This document shows, one piece after another, positions 2 through 9,594 of a stretch of DNA of 34,297 bases. Origin of the DNA: an uncultured Winogradskyella sp. (GTDB lineage: Bacteria > Bacteroidota > Bacteroidia > Flavobacteriales > Flavobacteriaceae); assembly GCF_937958655.1 (NCBI RefSeq), contig NZ_CALGNH010000019.1, positions 1 through 34,297 of the forward strand, written 5' to 3'. The notes under the pieces were generated by a model, which was not told the DNA's origin, did not search any database, and saw only the letters and a list, made by a program, of their open reading frames with translations. The number at the start of each line of letters is the position of its first letter. Positions within the stretch are counted from its first letter, which is position 1. Made by a program: the position numbers and the translations under genes.

Positions 2-1375
2 AATGAGGTAAACACTGCAATTAGTAGATTAAGCACTAGGCTAAATAGAAAAGGTAGTAGGTTACAAAAAACTTTAGACACAGACAGTATATTTATTGAT
101 GTTGAAGATATTATATATATGACCTATGCCCAAACCCACACGTATACGTTTAAAATGATAAGGTCTAATCCAGAATATTACATAGAAAACATTGTCCTCC
201 ATTACAATGTAGATACACAAAGCTATGACGAGTACCTTTTACAGTATGACTTAACAGCTGAGGAATATATAGATATTGCTAATGGTGGTGATTTAAGTGA
301 TGATGTCATTACATATATTACAAATTTAGATACTGGTACTTTATCAGCCGCACTTAATAAAAATAGTTGTACAATTACATGCCAAACCTTAGTACTAACA
401 TGTACAGCTGGCGGTGGGCACTACCCTAACGACCCAGAATGTTGTGTCACCAAAGGAGAATGTAGTGCAGATAAAGGAGGAGCCATATTCAATACCTGTA
501 CTCCAAGCTGTACATACGATCCACCTGTTGAATCTATAGATGAAGGGGATAACTCTAGTGGTGGAGGTGGTGGAGGCAATGGCACCATTGCAACAAACCC
601 TAACCCACGTGAGGTATGTCACCAAAATGGTAGTATTGGTATAAGTGGCAATGAAAGTGAATGTCACTTGCCTGTTTATGATGACTATCAAATAATTAAT
701 GAATTAAATGGAAAAGCACTCTGTGTCTACAATAAGTTAAAATCAAGTAGTAATGGTTTTAAAAACTCTATCAAAAAGTTTGATGGTGAATTTCCAGTAG
801 CGCATATAAAGTTTGACTTGGGGAACCTTGGTATTGCCTTTGGTAAAACTATTCCTCCGAATAGTACAGAAATAGATACCTCTCCAGATTATGTGATTAC
901 TGTTAGGCTAAACAATAATAGCTCTATTAATGGAGTTACCAAAAGACCAAATTTATTGGTCGCTAAAACTATAGCTCACGAGGTTATGCATGCAGAAATG
1001 TTTAGAAAAGTATTATCTTTTATTGATAATGGTGGTAATGTCGATGGAGTAACAAGGCAAGATGTTTTAGATGCACTAGATGGGAATTATCCAGGATTAT
1101 ATGATTATTACAGACGCTATAAAAATTGGCAACATGCACAAATGGCAACTCATTACAGAGAAACTTTAGCGAGAATTTTACAAGAATACGACACTGGTAT
1201 TGCAGTTGCTGATAACCAACAACCTCAACTGCTGTATATGGATTTGGCCTGGGAAGGTTTAATATATCCCGAGATCCCTACTTGGAACAACTTACCTCAA
1301 ACTGAAAAGAATAGGGTTAATAATGTCATTTCTGACTATATAGCTGATAATCAAAATGAAACTTGTACAGAATGA
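2..1375 (+). CDS. Cys-rich protein with C-terminal HEVMH zinc-metallopeptidase-like domain, putative polymorphic toxin (5' end outside window)
   Basis: The frame is open from the left edge, so the first Met inside the window (base 119) is probably not the start. At least 458 codons are visible. Counting from base 119, residues 1-75 form a segment rich in Tyr, Asp and Glu (HTYTF, YYIEN, SYDEYL). Residues 80-140 are Cys-rich, and a Gly-rich linker lies near 146-156. A last domain of about 230 residues carries HEVMH at 287-291, followed by an acidic residue in HEVMHAE. That matches the HExxH zinc-binding signature of zincin peptidases. A later H-x-x-M-A-x-x-Y motif (near 341) may supply another structural or metal-binding residue. 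The stop overlaps the next start in ATGA. A variable enzymatic tail after a linker, followed by a coupled small exported gene, is the plan of a polymorphic toxin with its immunity protein. The toxin role is inference; the metallopeptidase motif is directly seen. Confidence 0.75.
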   Translation, partial: NEVNTAISRLSTRLNRKGSRLQKTLDTDSIFIDVEDIIYMTYAQTHTYTFKMIRSNPEYYIENIVLHYNVDTQSYDEYLLQYDLTAEEYIDIANGGDLSDDVITYITNLDTGTLSAALNKNSCTITCQTLVLTCTAGGGHYPNDPECCVTKGECSADKGGAIFNTCTPSCTYDPPVESIDEGDNSSGGGGGGNGTIATNPNPREVCHQNGSIGISGNESECHLPVYDDYQIINELNGKALCVYNKLKSSSNGFKNSIKKFDGEFPVAHIKFDLGNLGIAFGKTIPPNSTEIDTSPDYVITVRLNNNSSINGVTKRPNLLVAKTIAHEVMHAEMFRKVLSFIDNGGNVDGVTRQDVLDALDGNYPGLYDYYRRYKNWQHAQMATHYRETLARILQEYDTGIAVADNQQPQLLYMDLAWEGLIYPEIPTWNNLPQTEKNRVNNVISDYIADNQNETCTE

Positions 1376-2079
1376 AATTTCAAATAATGAAGAAATTGTT
1401 AATGAATTTAGTAAAAACATTAAATGATATAACATACTTAGTGAGTCTATTATTTTTAATAAGTTTTTGTAGTTGTAAAGAAGGAGAGCAAAAAAAGGTT
1501 GATTTAAATACTAAAATGAAGTCAAATACTTCAGAATTTATAGAAAAAAGAAATTCAAAAATTAGCCAAGACTCTACTATAAAACCACGAAAAGTAGATT
1601 TAATATTTTTACATTCAGAAAATCAAACAGATACATTAATTGGCTTTTGTAATTGCGAAAAAAATATTAAGAATAATACATTGAAAATTCAAGTCAGGAC
1701 CGAGTTTCCATCTTTAAATAAACTGAGAAATAATAATAGAAGTGCGACAGAATTTCAAACAGGTGTGGATAAACAATACCGATTTATAACTTTTTATTTA
1801 AAAGACTCTCTTGTTGATAAAACAAAAATTTTTAAAGCATCAACTAAAGCCCATTTTAATGATAAAAAAATCGATTCATTTTCATTTGATGAATATAAAA
1901 TTAATATTAATCAATTTCATTTTGAAATTGCTCAAAATGTATGGGGAGACTATCAAATAGACTTATCTAAGCCGTTTGGTTTTATTAAAAATGAGAAAAA
2001 ATTGAACGGCACCTTCCGATGTAATAATTGGCGTATTGTGGAATATGAAGACTTACATAATTGGACTTTAAAAGATTAA
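1372..2079 (+). CDS. Predicted lipoprotein coupled to the metallopeptidase gene, candidate immunity protein
   Basis: The ATG at 1372 overlaps the upstream TGA (ATGA), the usual sign of translational coupling; an in-frame TTG nine bases earlier is less likely. The protein is 235 residues. A hydrophobic stretch (residues about 24-34) ends in a Cys-containing SFCSC site followed by charged residues, which fits a lipoprotein signal and would place it in the periplasm. The mature part is Lys/Asn-rich and contains a CNC motif, and I recognise no family. It is not an obvious paralogue of the two small genes downstream. Position, coupling and export make an immunity protein for the upstream metallopeptidase a reasonable guess, not a demonstrated role. 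An alternative start is the ATG at 1387 (MKKLLMN), which would give a more conventional signal sequence but no coupling. Confidence 0.7.
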   Translation: MKFQIMKKLLMNLVKTLNDITYLVSLLFLISFCSCKEGEQKKVDLNTKMKSNTSEFIEKRNSKISQDSTIKPRKVDLIFLHSENQTDTLIGFCNCEKNIKNNTLKIQVRTEFPSLNKLRNNNRSATEFQTGVDKQYRFITFYLKDSLVDKTKIFKASTKAHFNDKKIDSFSFDEYKININQFHFEIAQNVWGDYQIDLSKPFGFIKNEKKLNGTFRCNNWRIVEYEDLHNWTLKD

Positions 2080-2109
2080 ATTAATAATTAAGAATATTTT
2101 TAAGCATAA

Positions 2110-2264
2110 TCAATTTAAGAAAGTTTACTTGTGGCTAAAACAATAGTTAAGAAAATCATCAATGAGGAAATACGTAAAAAAATAAACAGTTCTAATTAGT
2201 GGAAGATTAAAATATCATTTCAGATTAAATAAATGATAACATAAATGAAACCTGTACAGAATGA
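2110..2264 (+). pseudogene. Decayed copy of the metallopeptidase gene 3' end
   Basis: Two blocks resemble the gene ending at 1375. The bases from 2131 read VAKTIVKKIINEEIRKKI, which aligns without gaps to VAKTIAHEVMHAEMFRKV of the intact protein; the HEVMH positions are replaced by KKIIN. In another frame, 2211-2264 read NIISD, a stop (TAA where the intact gene has a Tyr codon), then INDNINETCTE and TGA, matching the intact C-terminus NNVISDYIADNQNETCTE. The part between is deleted and shifted, so no protein can be made. The final TGA still overlaps the ATG of the next small gene. This is a sequence fossil of a second module. Confidence 0.75.
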
Positions 2265-2707
2265 AAACTATGACATTATTATTTTTTATGATTAATACTA
2301 TCACTTGCTTCTCTCAGAAACAAGTGATGGAAAAAGAGACAGTTTATTTATTGTTTGACAAACAAAACAAGGAGCAATGCTTAATTGAAGATGGCTCGGG
2401 TAATTCCAAGTACACGAATAAATATAGAAAAGAGTACTGGAGCAATGGTAATATCATAAATTTCAGAATCTGTAATGAAAGGTTTACTTCTCATAGAACT
2501 AAAAGCTCTATTGATACTTGCTCAGCAAAGGCTTTAGATAACATTAAACTTGTTGATTTTGATTATCTCCAAAAAAAGTATGATTCTGTTTATGAATTTA
2601 AACATCACGTATTTGAGAAGATTTATTTTATTGAGAAAATATCTGAGGATAAAATCATTAAATACGAAGTCAATTGGGTGGATAGTATAATGATGATTCA
2701 AGATTAG
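2261..2707 (+). CDS. Small exported protein, candidate orphan immunity protein (paralogue 1)
   Basis: This 148-residue protein starts at an ATG that overlaps the TGA of the decayed metallopeptidase tail, exactly as in the intact pair upstream. Residues 1-18 form a hydrophobic signal sequence ending CFSQ, so the product is expected in the periplasm or outer membrane. The rest is charged and has a well-conserved core shared with the gene at 2879-3328: NGNIINF, DTCS, KALDNIK, VDFDYL, EFKHHVFEKIYF and KIIKYEV. I estimate about 60 percent identity by eye. Four Cys lie outside the signal region, counting those in IC and DTC. I recognise no named family. It is followed by a strong hairpin. An orphan immunity gene left behind after its toxin decayed is the simplest reading, but this is inferred only from the arrangement. 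Confidence 0.7.
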   Translation: MKTMTLLFFMINTITCFSQKQVMEKETVYLLFDKQNKEQCLIEDGSGNSKYTNKYRKEYWSNGNIINFRICNERFTSHRTKSSIDTCSAKALDNIKLVDFDYLQKKYDSVYEFKHHVFEKIYFIEKISEDKIIKYEVNWVDSIMMIQD

Positions 2708-2751
2708 AATGTGTTCATAAATCTACAATATAGTTTTTGAGAATTTGAGAT

Positions 2752-2788
2752 ACTATCGTTATTCTTGCTAGTCAAGAATAGCGATAGT
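2752..2788 (+). terminator. Strong hairpin after the small exported gene
   Basis: Arms 2752-2767 and 2773-2788 pair over 16 positions with one G-T wobble, and the loop is 5 bases. The tail is only TTTTG, so termination may be partial. It separates the first paralogue from the next remnant module. Confidence 0.6.
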
Positions 2789-2792
2789 TTTG

Positions 2793-2882
2793 CATGATTT
2801 GCCTCAGACCGAAAAAGATAGAGTAGAAGAAGTCATTTCAGATTACATAAATAACAATCAAAACGAAACTTGTACAGAATGA
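2793..2882 (+). pseudogene. Truncated metallopeptidase C-terminal tail (29 codons)
   Basis: Codons 2793-2879 read HDLPQTEKDRVEEVISDY followed by INNNQNETCTE, then TGA. The intact protein ends NNLPQTEKNRVNNVISDY and IADNQNETCTE, so 22 of 29 residues are identical. No start codon or upstream domain remains, because the segment begins just after the hairpin at 2752-2788. The stop at 2880-2882 overlaps the ATG at 2879. This fragment is much less mutated than the one at 2110-2264, so it was probably acquired or truncated more recently. Confidence 0.8.
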
Positions 2883-3328
2883 AAACTATAACATTAATAT
2901 TTTTTTTAATGGTGACCTTAATGTGCTTCTCTCAAAAAGAGGTTAAGAAAAAAGAAACTGTTTATTTATTTTTTAATTTACAAAGTAATGAGAAATGTAA
3001 AGTTGCAGTTAGGGCAAAAGGATATGTAGATATGAATAAATTTAGAAAAGATTATAGGGATAATGGCAATATCATAAATTTTAAAATCTGTGATGAAAGA
3101 TTCGCTGCCCATAAAAATAGAAGTTATAGAGATACATGTTCCATAAAGGCTTTAGATAATATAAAATTTGTAGATTTTGATTATCTAATAGAAAAATACA
3201 ATTCAGTATTTGAATTTAAGCACCATGTATTTGAAAAAATTTATTTTGTAGAGAAAATATCTGATGAAAAAATCATTAAATATGAAGTCAGATGGTTAGA
3301 CGAAAGGATTATGTTTAGAGAAGATTAA
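2879..3328 (+). CDS. Small exported protein, candidate orphan immunity protein (paralogue 2)
   Basis: A 149-residue paralogue of the gene at 2261-2707. It has the same signal sequence type (MKTITLIFF to CFSQ) and the same core motifs NGNIINF, DTCS, KALDNIK, VDFDYL, EFKHHVFEKIYF and KIIKYEV. The start is taken as the ATG at 2879, which overlaps the stop of the truncated metallopeptidase tail; the TTG at 2870 lies inside that tail and is less plausible. The gene ends before a perfect bidirectional terminator facing glyS. It has no intact partner upstream, so it is a second orphan module. The family is unrecognised. Confidence 0.7.
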   Translation: MKTITLIFFLMVTLMCFSQKEVKKKETVYLFFNLQSNEKCKVAVRAKGYVDMNKFRKDYRDNGNIINFKICDERFAAHKNRSYRDTCSIKALDNIKFVDFDYLIEKYNSVFEFKHHVFEKIYFVEKISDEKIIKYEVRWLDERIMFRED

Positions 3329-6716: not shown

Positions 6717-8336
6717 ATGCGCCAATTACTTTTAAGATTATTTAGTGTTTTCATCCTCATATTTTGTATTATGAGTTGTGCCAATAGAGGTACACCAACA
6801 GGAGGCGAAATAGACAAAGAGGCACCAGTAATTACTAAGAGTAATCCAGAGAACTTTTCAACAAACTTTAAAGGAGATGAAATTAAGATTTATTTTAATG
6901 AATACATTAAAATTAAGGATCTTAGAAAACAGCTCATTATATCCCCTCCAATGGATACGGAACCTGTTATAACTCCAATGAGTAGCGCAAGTAAGTATAT
7001 TACCATAAAAATAAAAGATACACTTAAGGAAAATACAACTTATGCCTTTAATTTTGGTGAAAGTATTGTAGATAATAATGAAGAAAACCCTTATTCTTAC
7101 TATCGCTATGTATTTTCAACCGGAGATACCATTGATTCCTTATCTGTAAAAGGCTTTGTTAAAGACGCATTACTAGAAGAACCCGACACCTTTATTTCGG
7201 TGATGCTCTATGAGGCAGATTCTACGTATACCGATTCTATAATTTATAAAGAAAAACCAAGATATATAACCAATACACTAGATAGCTTAACAAGTTTTAG
7301 TATAGATAACATAAAAGAAGGCAAGTATAAACTCATTGCTTTAAAAGATAATAACGGTGATTTTAAGTTTAAGCAAAAGACTGAAAAAATTGGCTTTAAA
7401 GAGGGCTTTATAACCATACCATCGGACGCTAACTATGGACTAACCTTATTTAAGGAAGAGACAAATTTTAAAGCTGTAAAACCAAAACAAGAAGGCGAAA
7501 CTAAGATTATATTTCCTTATGAAGGAAATTATGAAGCTATGCAAATTGAAGTGTTAGGTGAAACACCAGAAGGGTACAAAACAAGGATTGTAAAAAGTGC
7601 AGAAACCGACACACTATATTATTGGTATAAACCAAAATTTGAAATAGATTCTACCTTTTTTATAGTTAAAAACGAAAAGGGGATAGATACGTTTAAACAT
7701 CGATTTAGAAAGCTTGAAAAGGATTCTTTAGTCGTTAAAGCGATTAGTAATGGTACATTAACGGATTTTGAAGATTTTGTATTAGAAGCAAGTACGCCTT
7801 TAACTAAAATAGATACAACCAAGATAACGTTAATGGATAGAGATTCCTCAGTAGTTAATTATAGTGTTAAATATGATTCTATTTTAAATTATTATAGGTT
7901 CTCTCTAAAAAAAGAAGAAGGTCAAAAGTACACGTTTAAAATGCTGCCAGAAACCTTTACTGATTTTTATGAAGATAAAAATAAGGATACTTTAGATTAT
8001 ACCTTTAGAACAAAAATGAAATCTGATTATGGGAGGATTAGGGTAAACTTAGTTAATGCTAAATTGCCTTTAATAGTACAATTGGTTGATAATAAAGGTG
8101 AAGTTATGTACGAGCAGTATGCGGATAAAATTCCTATTGTTGATTTTTTAGATCTAGATCCAAAAAAGTATGCCCTAAGAGTGATACATGATGAAAATGC
8201 TAATGGAAAATTTGATACTGGTAATTACCTCTTAGGTATACAGCCAGAGCGTGTAAGTTACTTCCCTAAAGAAAAAATGGAAGATGTTAGAGCTAATTTT
8301 GATTTAACATTTAGCTTTACACTTTTAGAAGAGTAA
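6717..8336 (+). CDS. Lipoprotein with N-terminal bacterial Ig-like (SbsA/Big_5) domain
   Basis: A 539-residue envelope protein. The signal sequence ends in the lipobox IMSC with Cys at 21, followed by ANRGTPTGG. Residues about 30-125 (DKEAPVITKSNPENFSTNF to YAFNFGESIVD) have the layout of the Ig-like domain that recurs in Bacteroidota surface proteins. The rest is rich in beta-type sequence and Lys/Asp/Thr with no catalytic signature. Homologues in this group are conserved but uncharacterised. The 3' end overlaps the convergent omega-amidase gene by 20 bases. I would not assign a function beyond an outer-membrane or periplasmic lipoprotein. Confidence 0.85.
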   Translation: MRQLLLRLFSVFILIFCIMSCANRGTPTGGEIDKEAPVITKSNPENFSTNFKGDEIKIYFNEYIKIKDLRKQLIISPPMDTEPVITPMSSASKYITIKIKDTLKENTTYAFNFGESIVDNNEENPYSYYRYVFSTGDTIDSLSVKGFVKDALLEEPDTFISVMLYEADSTYTDSIIYKEKPRYITNTLDSLTSFSIDNIKEGKYKLIALKDNNGDFKFKQKTEKIGFKEGFITIPSDANYGLTLFKEETNFKAVKPKQEGETKIIFPYEGNYEAMQIEVLGETPEGYKTRIVKSAETDTLYYWYKPKFEIDSTFFIVKNEKGIDTFKHRFRKLEKDSLVVKAISNGTLTDFEDFVLEASTPLTKIDTTKITLMDRDSSVVNYSVKYDSILNYYRFSLKKEEGQKYTFKMLPETFTDFYEDKNKDTLDYTFRTKMKSDYGRIRVNLVNAKLPLIVQLVDNKGEVMYEQYADKIPIVDFLDLDPKKYALRVIHDENANGKFDTGNYLLGIQPERVSYFPKEKMEDVRANFDLTFSFTLLEE

Positions 8337-9102
8337 AATTATCTTTATCCTTCAAAAAGCCCAGTTTATTTCTGTATTTAGTAATGTGTGATTGCTCTAA
8401 AGTAATCGTTTCAATGGTTTCTTTACCGCTAGCGATGGAATCTAATCTATTCCCTAAAACATCAAAAACTGCAGAGTGCCCAGAATATTCATAATTATTA
8501 CCATCTAAGCCAACTCTGTTAACGCCAATGCAGTAACACATGTTTTCTATGGCACGTGCTTGTAATAAGGCGTCCCAAGCATTTACTCTTACTTTGGGCC
8601 AATTGGCTGCATATACAAGTAGATCATAGTTTTCAATATTCCTAGCCCAAACTGGGAAACGGAGATCATAACAAATTAGAGGACAAATCTTAAAACCCTT
8701 GTAGTCAAATATTATTTTTTTAGATCCGGCTTTATAAACTTTATCTTCACCAGCTAGTGTAAATGTATGTCTTTTGTCGTATTGGTGTACTTTACCAGTA
8801 GGTTCTACACAAACTAAACGATTATAAAATCTCGCATTTTCTGTAATAACTAAACTACCCATTATGGCTGCTTGTTTTTCTTCGGCGAGATTTTTTAACC
8901 ATAACAAGGTATCGCCTTGCATAGTTTCTGCAACCAAGGAAGCATTCATAGTAAAACCAGAAGTAAACATTTCTGGCAAAACAAAAAGATCAACATCATC
9001 CGCAACAGAATTGATTTTATCACTGAGTAAACGTCTGTTTTCGGTAGGGTTTTCCCAAGCGAGGCTTGTTTGTATTAAAGCAACGGTAAGCGTATTAGGC
9101 AT
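8317..9102 (-). CDS. Carbon-nitrogen hydrolase, likely omega-amidase (YafV/Nit2 type)
   Basis: A 261-residue nitrilase-superfamily enzyme with the full Glu-Lys-Cys triad: E44 in VLPEMF, K110 in YDKRHTF and C144 in LICYDLRFP. The sequence around the triad is that of omega-amidases, which hydrolyse 2-oxoglutaramate and 2-oxosuccinamate. These are the products left when glutamine or asparagine donates nitrogen in a transamination. A methionine aminotransferase of the YbdL type lies two genes upstream on the same strand, so the pair could form a glutamine transaminase/omega-amidase cycle that regenerates methionine from its 2-oxo acid. The pairing is family knowledge; the substrate is inferred. 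The start is 3 bases from the stop of the upstream gene. Confidence 0.9.
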   Translation of the reverse strand: MPNTLTVALIQTSLAWENPTENRRLLSDKINSVADDVDLFVLPEMFTSGFTMNASLVAETMQGDTLLWLKNLAEEKQAAIMGSLVITENARFYNRLVCVEPTGKVHQYDKRHTFTLAGEDKVYKAGSKKIIFDYKGFKICPLICYDLRFPVWARNIENYDLLVYAANWPKVRVNAWDALLQARAIENMCYCIGVNRVGLDGNNYEYSGHSAVFDVLGNRLDSIASGKETIETITLEQSHITKYRNKLGFLKDKDNFTLLKV

Positions 9103-9105
9103 AGG

Positions 9106-9594
9106 CTATAATTTACGTTTGGCTTTTTCTGATTTTTCATTAAGTTTTTCTAGTTTTTCAAGCCATTTTTCTTCGTCAATTGGTGAGAGTTTTCCTTTCT
9201 TCTTTAATTTTTCGTATTTCTTTTGTGCTTTGGCTAATTTATCTTTTGCACTCTTGTAATTGTCCTTAAGTTTTTGTTCCTTTTTTAGAGCTTTTTCGGC
9301 TTCTTTTGCTCTCTTTTCTACTTTTTTCTGCTCTTTTTCTACTTTTTTGGCTTCTTTTTCTTTTTTCTTTTCCGACTTTTCTTTTGCTTTTTGTGCTTCC
9401 ATTTTTTTTGTAATGATTGAAGCCTCTTTTAATATTGCAGATTTTTCTTCTGCGCTAATGGTTTGGGTAACATCTTCACCGTTCAAAAAAATCTTTTCTT
9501 TTTTAACCTCATAGGATTTGCCCTCTTTTTCAACTTTTTGGGCATAAGAGGATAATGATAAGCTTAAGAATAATAGTATAATATAATATTTCAT
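9106..9594 (-). CDS. Exported Lys/Glu-rich helical protein
   Basis: A 162-residue protein with a clear signal peptide (residues 1-19, ending SSYAQ). About 40 residues follow that include FLNGEDVTQTISAEEK. From about residue 64 to the end it is almost entirely Lys, Glu, Ala and Leu in long charged helices (KKEKEAKKVEKEQKKVEK is typical), probably a single long helix or coiled coil. No enzyme motif is visible. It sits between the aminotransferase and omega-amidase genes, with 51 and 3 bases of spacing, so the three may be co-transcribed. Nothing links it functionally to methionine recycling. Such sequence gives many false matches to coiled-coil proteins. Confidence 0.75.
   Translation of the reverse strand: MKYYIILLFLSLSLSSYAQKVEKEGKSYEVKKEKIFLNGEDVTQTISAEEKSAILKEASIITKKMEAQKAKEKSEKKKEKEAKKVEKEQKKVEKRAKEAEKALKKEQKLKDNYKSAKDKLAKAQKKYEKLKKKGKLSPIDEEKWLEKLEKLNEKSEKAKRKL

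Follow-up and report, generated by a model that had tools for sequence, protein, structure and literature searches.

A candidate polymorphic toxin/immunity family of Flavobacteriaceae with lipoprotein toxins, at a locus of an uncultured Winogradskyella sp.

Background

Polymorphic toxins are already known as a kind, and several described systems resemble a locus at the left end of a 34,297-nucleotide stretch of DNA from an uncultured Winogradskyella sp. of the Flavobacteriaceae (contig NZ_CALGNH010000019.1 of assembly GCF_937958655.1, read on the forward strand; this whole stretch is called "the window" below). The locus consists of an open reading frame (ORF) at positions 2–1375 with a metallopeptidase-like C-terminal tail, followed by three genes that encode small exported proteins; all of the features discussed below for the window lie on the + strand. 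The published systems are compared here through the portions of their papers that were available. SitA/SitI of the myxobacteria shares with our locus an outer-membrane lipoprotein toxin with a variable C-terminal domain and a downstream immunity gene, and in 2017 its authors presented SitA as, to their knowledge, the first lipoprotein among the polymorphic toxins (PMC5562445). Compared by description, SitA/SitI differs in that it is found in another phylum, that a SitB gene accompanies some SitA genes, that SitA delivery depends on TraA/TraB outer membrane exchange whereas here a mode of delivery can only be proposed, and that the SitA1 and SitA3 ends act in the cytoplasm whereas the window tail probably acts in the periplasm (PMC5562445).

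Like the proteins described here, the TANFOR toxins of the Bacteroidetes can end in AHH or other toxin domains and have immunity genes downstream, but they are large and are proposed to be type IX secretion substrates, whereas ours are mostly lipoproteins of about 450–700 amino acids (aa); the available text of the TANFOR paper does not contain the word "lipoprotein" (PMC7073777). No NCBIfam match above cut-off, and so none to the TANFOR model TIGR02542 if the library includes it, was found in 10 proteins or in the window pieces. The VgrG2b C-terminal domain with PA0261 (Tpe-Tpi) shares the HExxH motif and a small downstream immunity gene, and its toxicity in the periplasm is countered there by an immunity protein (PMC6899460). 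It differs in reaching its target through type VI secretion, as a part of VgrG, and its orthologues are classed as DUF4157 (PMC6899460); we found no match to VipB/TssC in the window's genome and none to DUF4157 in the window protein or, at E 0.01, among the 51 tail-bearing rows of our alignment A2. The 2012 survey of Zhang (PMC3482391) includes metallopeptidase and JAB toxin ends (Tox-MPTase1-5 and Tox-JAB-1, for which Imm65 is an exported lipoprotein immunity protein), and it describes Bacteroidetes proteins (Microscilla-N and APD1/APD2) that, like ours, have constant N-termini with a signal peptide or lipobox and polymorphic C-termini. APD1/APD2 are from Amoebophilus and Microscilla-N from one species, whereas the N-terminal module of the window protein (the N-module) is present in 31 of 397 Flavobacteriaceae-family genomes and is not named in the available text of that survey (PMC3482391).

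Among the papers listed from the open-licence PubMed Central literature, which does not extend to subscription papers, none gave a prior description of this N-module, its tail or its partner proteins, in keeping with the original suggestion that the array was possibly undescribed; as far as we have read, all three families are new. Our analysis supports the interpretation given in that prediction, with the corrections noted below. We think it very likely that the locus belongs to an undescribed polymorphic toxin/immunity family of Flavobacteriaceae, whose toxins are themselves lipoproteins of the cell surface, here with a zinc-peptidase tail that would act in the periplasm, and whose immunity proteins are exported; this reading is favoured because different tails are exchanged on the N-module, because tail remnants stand before orphan partner genes, and because two close genomes differ by a replacement.

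Results and discussion

The candidate toxin gene and its N-module

The genome is in 93 contigs, of which C19 is the window, and the frame 2–1375 is open at base 2, the contig edge, with its 5' part outside the window. Window bases 1–106 are identical to the final 106 bases of contig C27, where the same frame has an ATG and a hydrophobic lipoprotein signal that runs to ...WSCEKDD (L006:15886-16152); the C27 and C19 pieces were analysed separately and never joined. Thus the gene, which had been called intact, is incomplete in the window and would start on C27, and what was said of the ORF 2–1375 itself and of its HEVMH zinc-binding motif (977–991) is correct. As read from the two pieces, the product would be a lipoprotein made up of a Cys-rich module of about 220 aa (window part 2–670, delimited by the contig overlap, alignment A6 and a family-wide search), a Gly-rich linker and a C-terminal HExxH domain (674–1375).

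A search with 2–1375 found 209 proteins; in the best 120 of these 209, which were used, some match only its C-terminal half, some only its N-terminal half and some both. With the 63 proteins of a second search, made with the N-module, there are 169 homologues, of which 88 have the tail only, 26 both parts and 55 the N-module only (by single-sequence queries). Of the 102 tail-bearing proteins whose N-terminus is long, a profile of the N-module matches 49, a count that is partly circular as it includes 26 of the profile's own rows; the other 53, including those of loci L012 and L035, have another or a more distant N-terminus. Single linkage nevertheless groups 92 of the 102 N-termini together and leaves 10 outside, so many of them are divergent relatives rather than unrelated parts, and the predicted occurrence of the tail behind varied N-termini is largely borne out, though less freely than hoped.

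Exchange is clearer from the N-module side, where the same constant part carries other C-terminal toxin domains. Pfam domains above cut-off are present in three of 10 N-module proteins scanned (Tae4 in P0114, E 4.5e-20; AHH in P0112, E 1.1e-5; DUF6973 in P0097) and in four of 20 further ones (Tox-MPTase3 in L162, E 6.5e-10; M23 in L171, E 2.8e-12; DUF6973 in L153 and L184). JAB-like tails are also found on N-module proteins, with the motif in 21 of the 23 examined, and the tails of L158 and L167 have a PD-(D/E)xK-like motif, read by eye, and no Pfam match. Examination of 40 N-module regions gave 37 N-module ORFs in 36 of them (none from L155, L157, L166 and L180), and the 34 tails of at least 60 aa (the three shorter ones were left out) fall into 11 single-linkage clusters that do not correspond one-to-one with toxin types. 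Nine of these 34 tails are beta-rich and have no recognisable catalytic motif; this tail is common to L151, L160, L170, L172, L173, L177, L181, L185 and L187, and it could be another kind of toxin or belong to family members that are not toxins. Neither the two gene pieces nor the relatives scanned have Pfam matches to RHS or filamentous haemagglutinin repeats.

The probable zinc-peptidase tail

Thirteen tail positions are invariant in 51 aligned rows, including H102, E103, H106, E108, Y145, H154 and M157, and H154 (window 1133–1135) is a candidate third zinc ligand. The AF2 model of the tail (pLDDT 83.7, pTM 0.85) places residues 102–106, the HExxH motif, within a helix at 93–118, an arrangement like that of the zincin fold. 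Fold matches are weak; the top Foldseek match is an SPRTN entry at E 0.05. The SprT-like family PF10263 matches three of the 51 tail members (best E 2.9e-4, match location not shown), and the window protein is not one of the three. The tail is thus a probable zinc peptidase, perhaps SprT-like, whose targets may be envelope proteins.

Lipobox, export signal and compartment

A lipobox-like sequence is present in 59 of the 78 N-module proteins that begin with M, and the remaining 19 seem to be truncated or to have a start overlooked by our crude rule; the window's toxin gene, at its start on C27, has one, as SitA does. In Bacteroidetes a lipoprotein export signal has been described, with C-X-K-(D/E)2-X as the Capnocytophaga optimum and SDDFE as the consensus for Flavobacterium johnsoniae (PMC5080379). 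CEKDD of the window gene fits the published C-X-K-(D/E)2 and so has the Capnocytophaga form and not that of F. johnsoniae; what was described is a sorting signal and not a toxin system (PMC5080379). After the lipobox-like Cys, C-x-K-[DE][DE] is found in 16 of 69 toxins, three of 135 other ORFs and none of 30 partner proteins, and at least two acidic residues at +3 to +6 in 36 of 69, 13 of 135 and two of 30, respectively (Fisher p, toxins versus other ORFs, 3e-6 and 1e-10), where the lipobox rule makes false calls in all three classes, most of them in the controls.

Twenty-seven of the 34 tailed N-module ORFs have a next ORF within 60 nt, and in 24 of these 27, by hand count, it starts strongly hydrophobic. 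The three exceptions are L152, which has an HExxH tail, and L158 and L167, with their PD-(D/E)xK-like tails; the next genes of the last two are related to each other and have no export signal. The pattern, which has the two nuclease-like loci L158 and L167 as its basis, fits immunity proteins that are placed where the toxin acts.

Partner genes beside the tail

In the 49 genome loci that have the tail (not all different genomes, as five are from one Sinomicrobium and two from one Tenacibaculum), the next gene mostly encodes a small protein that starts hydrophobic. A profile grown from the window genes 2261–2707 and 2879–3328 as seeds defines a family of about 150 aa, a member of which lies within 2.5 kb of the tail in 39 of 45 loci; the profile was grown in rounds on these same loci, and its matches there are not independent. 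The four loci left out of the 45 (L029, L046, L055 and L060) are broken or at contig edges, and are included in a mapping of 80 family members from 61 sources. In that mapping 46 members stand behind a complete tail domain, defined as a match that starts no later than profile position 30, whether or not the frame is broken (L071, a copy of L012, is still counted among them); 13 stand behind a truncated tail, and among these the truncation of L041, L042 and L074 may come from broken frames or the end of a contig, the match at L015 (E 2e-3, gap 147) is weak, and at L057 the extreme 3' end is missing; and 21 have no tail within 150 nt. L072, L073 and L088-L091, which are copies of or overlap counted stretches (five of the six checked identical), are omitted, and the window gene behind the shorter remnant described below is counted as having no tail.

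Distances between tails correlate with those between the proteins of the next genes (r 0.63, 36 pairs; none of 2000 permutations reaches this r), a correlation that would also arise from linked descent, and the partners diverge faster, with a mean identity of 0.31 against 0.57 for the tails (234 comparisons with tail identity of at least 0.5). The predicted partner fold, modelled on 2879–3328, is mostly beta (pLDDT 85.8, pTM 0.73), and fold searches with this model found no known fold. Elsewhere the partner genes can form longer arrays: in Salegentibacter echinorum (L054 4113–6804) five tandem members stand behind one tail, the second of them behind a tail remnant.

The pairing has exceptions, and these weigh against strict one-to-one pairing and, in part, against the toxin/immunity reading. 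The small gene had been expected always next to the tail, and this holds for the 39 of 45 loci and fails for the 21 of 80 members without a tail within 150 nt; 17 of those 21 share their stretch with another member behind a tail or remnant, and at L076 and L083 there is a partner-family member with no tail anywhere in the stretch. Nor do the two profiles occur one-to-one in 299 family genomes, where the tail is found in 43, the partner in 17 and both in 11. In four of the 17 partner genomes (G004, G005, G022 and G267) the match is weak, covers only a section of the profile within a longer frame, and is probably due to chance similarity in the signal region. Distant tails thus often have other partners, as at L161 and L183, or none that we found; unrelated exported proteins occupy the partner slot at L038, L040, L161 and L183.

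Junctions, remnants and small genes of the window

Three small genes follow the tail in the window, as had been reported, at 1372/1387–2079, 2261–2707 and 2879–3328. A 20-mer at the tail/partner junction, GAAACYTGTACAGAATGAAA, in which the toxin stop TGA overlaps the next ATG as ATGA, is present three times in the window (1358–1377, 2247–2266 and 2865–2884) and in none of 100 shuffles. The candidate immunity gene directly downstream of the toxin, a role suggested by its adjacency, is 1372–2079, which encodes a lipoprotein of 230 aa from 1387 with a lipobox-like ...FCSC; it is unrelated to the usual immunity family and does not enter the profile of the other two genes. The products of 2261–2707 (148 aa) and 2879–3328 (149 aa) share 61% identity, and in both the hydrophobic stretch finishes in ..CFSQ, as expected for soluble exported proteins; export signals of the small window proteins were judged from sequence only. 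Both are immunity-like and predicted to be mostly beta, the former through its relative 2879–3328.

Each of these two orphan genes has a piece of the tail's 3' end before it. That at 2793–2882, about 29 codons and a stop, is clear: it matches profile positions 200–227 (E 4e-6), is 76% identical to toxin residues 429–457 (E 6e-7), and forms with the toxin 3' end a direct repeat of 113 nt at 72%. The one at about 2215–2264, recognised by the junction 20-mer, repeat comparison and its sequence, is decayed to about 15 codons with an internal in-frame stop and is too short for the tail profile. The claim of two remnant tails accordingly stands for 2793–2882 and is qualified for the shorter remnant. 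Just upstream of the shorter remnant, a 32-nt element at 2178–2209 is shared with C22:108–139, and its 27-nt core has only these two sites in the genome. Each copy of the core lies shortly 5' of an orphan small gene, the C22 copy preceding another small-gene array, and it is possibly a recombination or regulatory site.

A replacement between two close genomes

The flanks of locus L196 (genome G152) and of locus L035, from an uncultured Maribacter, agree at 96.3% identity over 1.8 kb to the left and at 97.9% over 3.9 kb to the right. Between these flanks L035 has a complete toxin gene (446 aa) and its partner, whereas L196 has other genes, then no more of the tail gene than its last 44 or so codons, and after these the partner gene that L035 also has; the match starts inside the tail gene. 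The arrangement is the one that had been proposed for the window, in which displacement of a toxin leaves its 3' end and partner gene behind. The genes in the toxin's place (L196 1831–4565) begin with one for a 289-aa lipoprotein and include small membrane proteins; the lipoprotein has a long Gly-rich hydrophobic stretch near its end and may perhaps be a pore-former.

Other loci in the genome and the JAB-like tails

A second locus of this genome, on C27 (L006), has an N-module lipoprotein with a JAB-like tail (HTHQ..PSGGD) at 7904–9520 on the minus strand, followed by a DUF6705 gene at 7289–7891, also minus, about 6.6 kb from the end of C27. A third, on C71 (L195, 506–2370, minus), has a JAB-like protein at 1045–2370 and then DUF6705; its N-module was found by a wider profile and not by the genome search that gave 31 of 397, and the pair is followed by a remnant of 75 aa with similarity to a tail piece on C22 (49% over 68 aa). 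DUF6705 is the next gene behind all five of the other JAB-like N-module proteins, loci chosen by eye for their tail, of which L178 lacks the motif pattern and was placed by similarity. On C22 (L007, 182–1417) are two related small genes (25% identity) with no evident export signal, one of them directly after a 117-aa toxin-tail-like fragment; this is a probable orphan array of another toxin family. A search of open-licence PubMed Central papers found none that names DUF6705 or DUF6973.

Alternative explanations

The tail could instead be a housekeeping or nutritional surface peptidase, with the small exported protein as its inhibitor or maturation partner and no antagonism involved. Surface lipoprotein enzymes are common in Bacteroidota, toxicity is deduced here from gene arrangement, and nine of the 34 N-module tails have no toxin-like motif. 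We consider this improbable, since the same N-module bears AHH, Tae4, Tox-MPTase3 and PD-(D/E)xK-like tails, remnants and orphan partners recur, the distribution is sparse, and L196 and L035 differ by replacement. Action on eukaryotes such as algae or grazers appears similarly improbable: some carriers belong to marine genera associated with algae, such as Kordia, and Bacteroidota are described to have host-aimed lipobox proteins with variable effector ends, APD1/APD2 (PMC3482391), but an exported partner gene stands behind most tails. Moreover, the Tae4 and M23 domains borne by other members act on peptidoglycan.

Within the toxin/immunity reading, it is less clear which gene protects against the window's own toxin and how the orphan units arose. 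A case that we judge somewhat short of even is that immunity is provided by one of the 150-aa proteins (2261–2707 or 2879–3328) and that 1372–2079 is an unrelated lipoprotein gene that came to lie in this position. Among tails with a genome locus, the closest (L012 and L013, 72% identical; L013 is from Winogradskyella marina and has a complete gene) are followed by the 150-aa family, and relatives of the 1387–2079 protein, found in nine of the 299 genomes (its own included), have neither tail nor 150-aa family gene beside them in any of the seven stretches read (about 1.5 kb of flank; two weak matches not read). On the other hand, 1372 overlaps the toxin stop as ATGA within the same junction 20-mer, and the unrelated exported proteins in this slot at four other loci make several immunity families plausible. 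We treat 1387–2079 as an alternative partner whose protective role, judged from its sequence and position, is uncertain. The orphan units might also have come from duplication in tandem of an immunity gene together with the piece of tail joined to it, rather than from displacement of toxins, which we regard as quite possible though not the better bet: they are direct repeats of each other, 76–77% identical at a spacing of 618 nt with the remnant included, and so need not record two independent events. The proposal that both are displaced cassettes is supported in that each has its remnant, and is weakened by this duplication. Elsewhere, however, remnants of different lengths precede orphan partners, and the replacement between L035 and L196 is a displacement; both processes can have acted.

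A model for the family and its implications

In the polymorphic toxin reading, the constant part of the protein, a lipobox with an acidic surface-export signal, the Cys-rich module and the Gly-rich linker, would carry a C-terminal toxin that can be exchanged. In the window this would be a zinc peptidase, perhaps of the SprT type, and its site of action would be a neighbour's periplasm. Genes that overlap downstream would supply exported small proteins, which would bind the tail and protect the producer and its kin. Recombination would swap the toxin gene and leave the old 3' end with its immunity gene, so that 2261–2707 and 2879–3328 would be leftovers of such swaps, one of them probably a tandem copy. 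How the toxin reaches its target can be suggested only tentatively, and we would not be surprised to be wrong: whole toxin lipoproteins might be flipped to the surface by the export signal and passed with their lipid anchor into the outer membrane of a touching neighbour, or through vesicles, with no injection machine. In this scheme the Cys-rich module would serve for the transfer, and the periplasmic immunity repertoire would comprise DUF6705, the beta proteins of 150 aa and other exported proteins.

The candidate weapon system at this locus belongs to a major group of bacteria of sea and soil. Its constant part, a surface lipoprotein, is of a new kind, and its peptidase toxin and immunity protein each represent a new candidate family. 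It also gives testable roles to DUF6705, as immunity to JAB-like toxins, and to DUF6973, as a toxin end. A second case of lipoprotein polymorphic toxins, in the Bacteroidota, would suggest that lipidation is a general strategy of toxin delivery.

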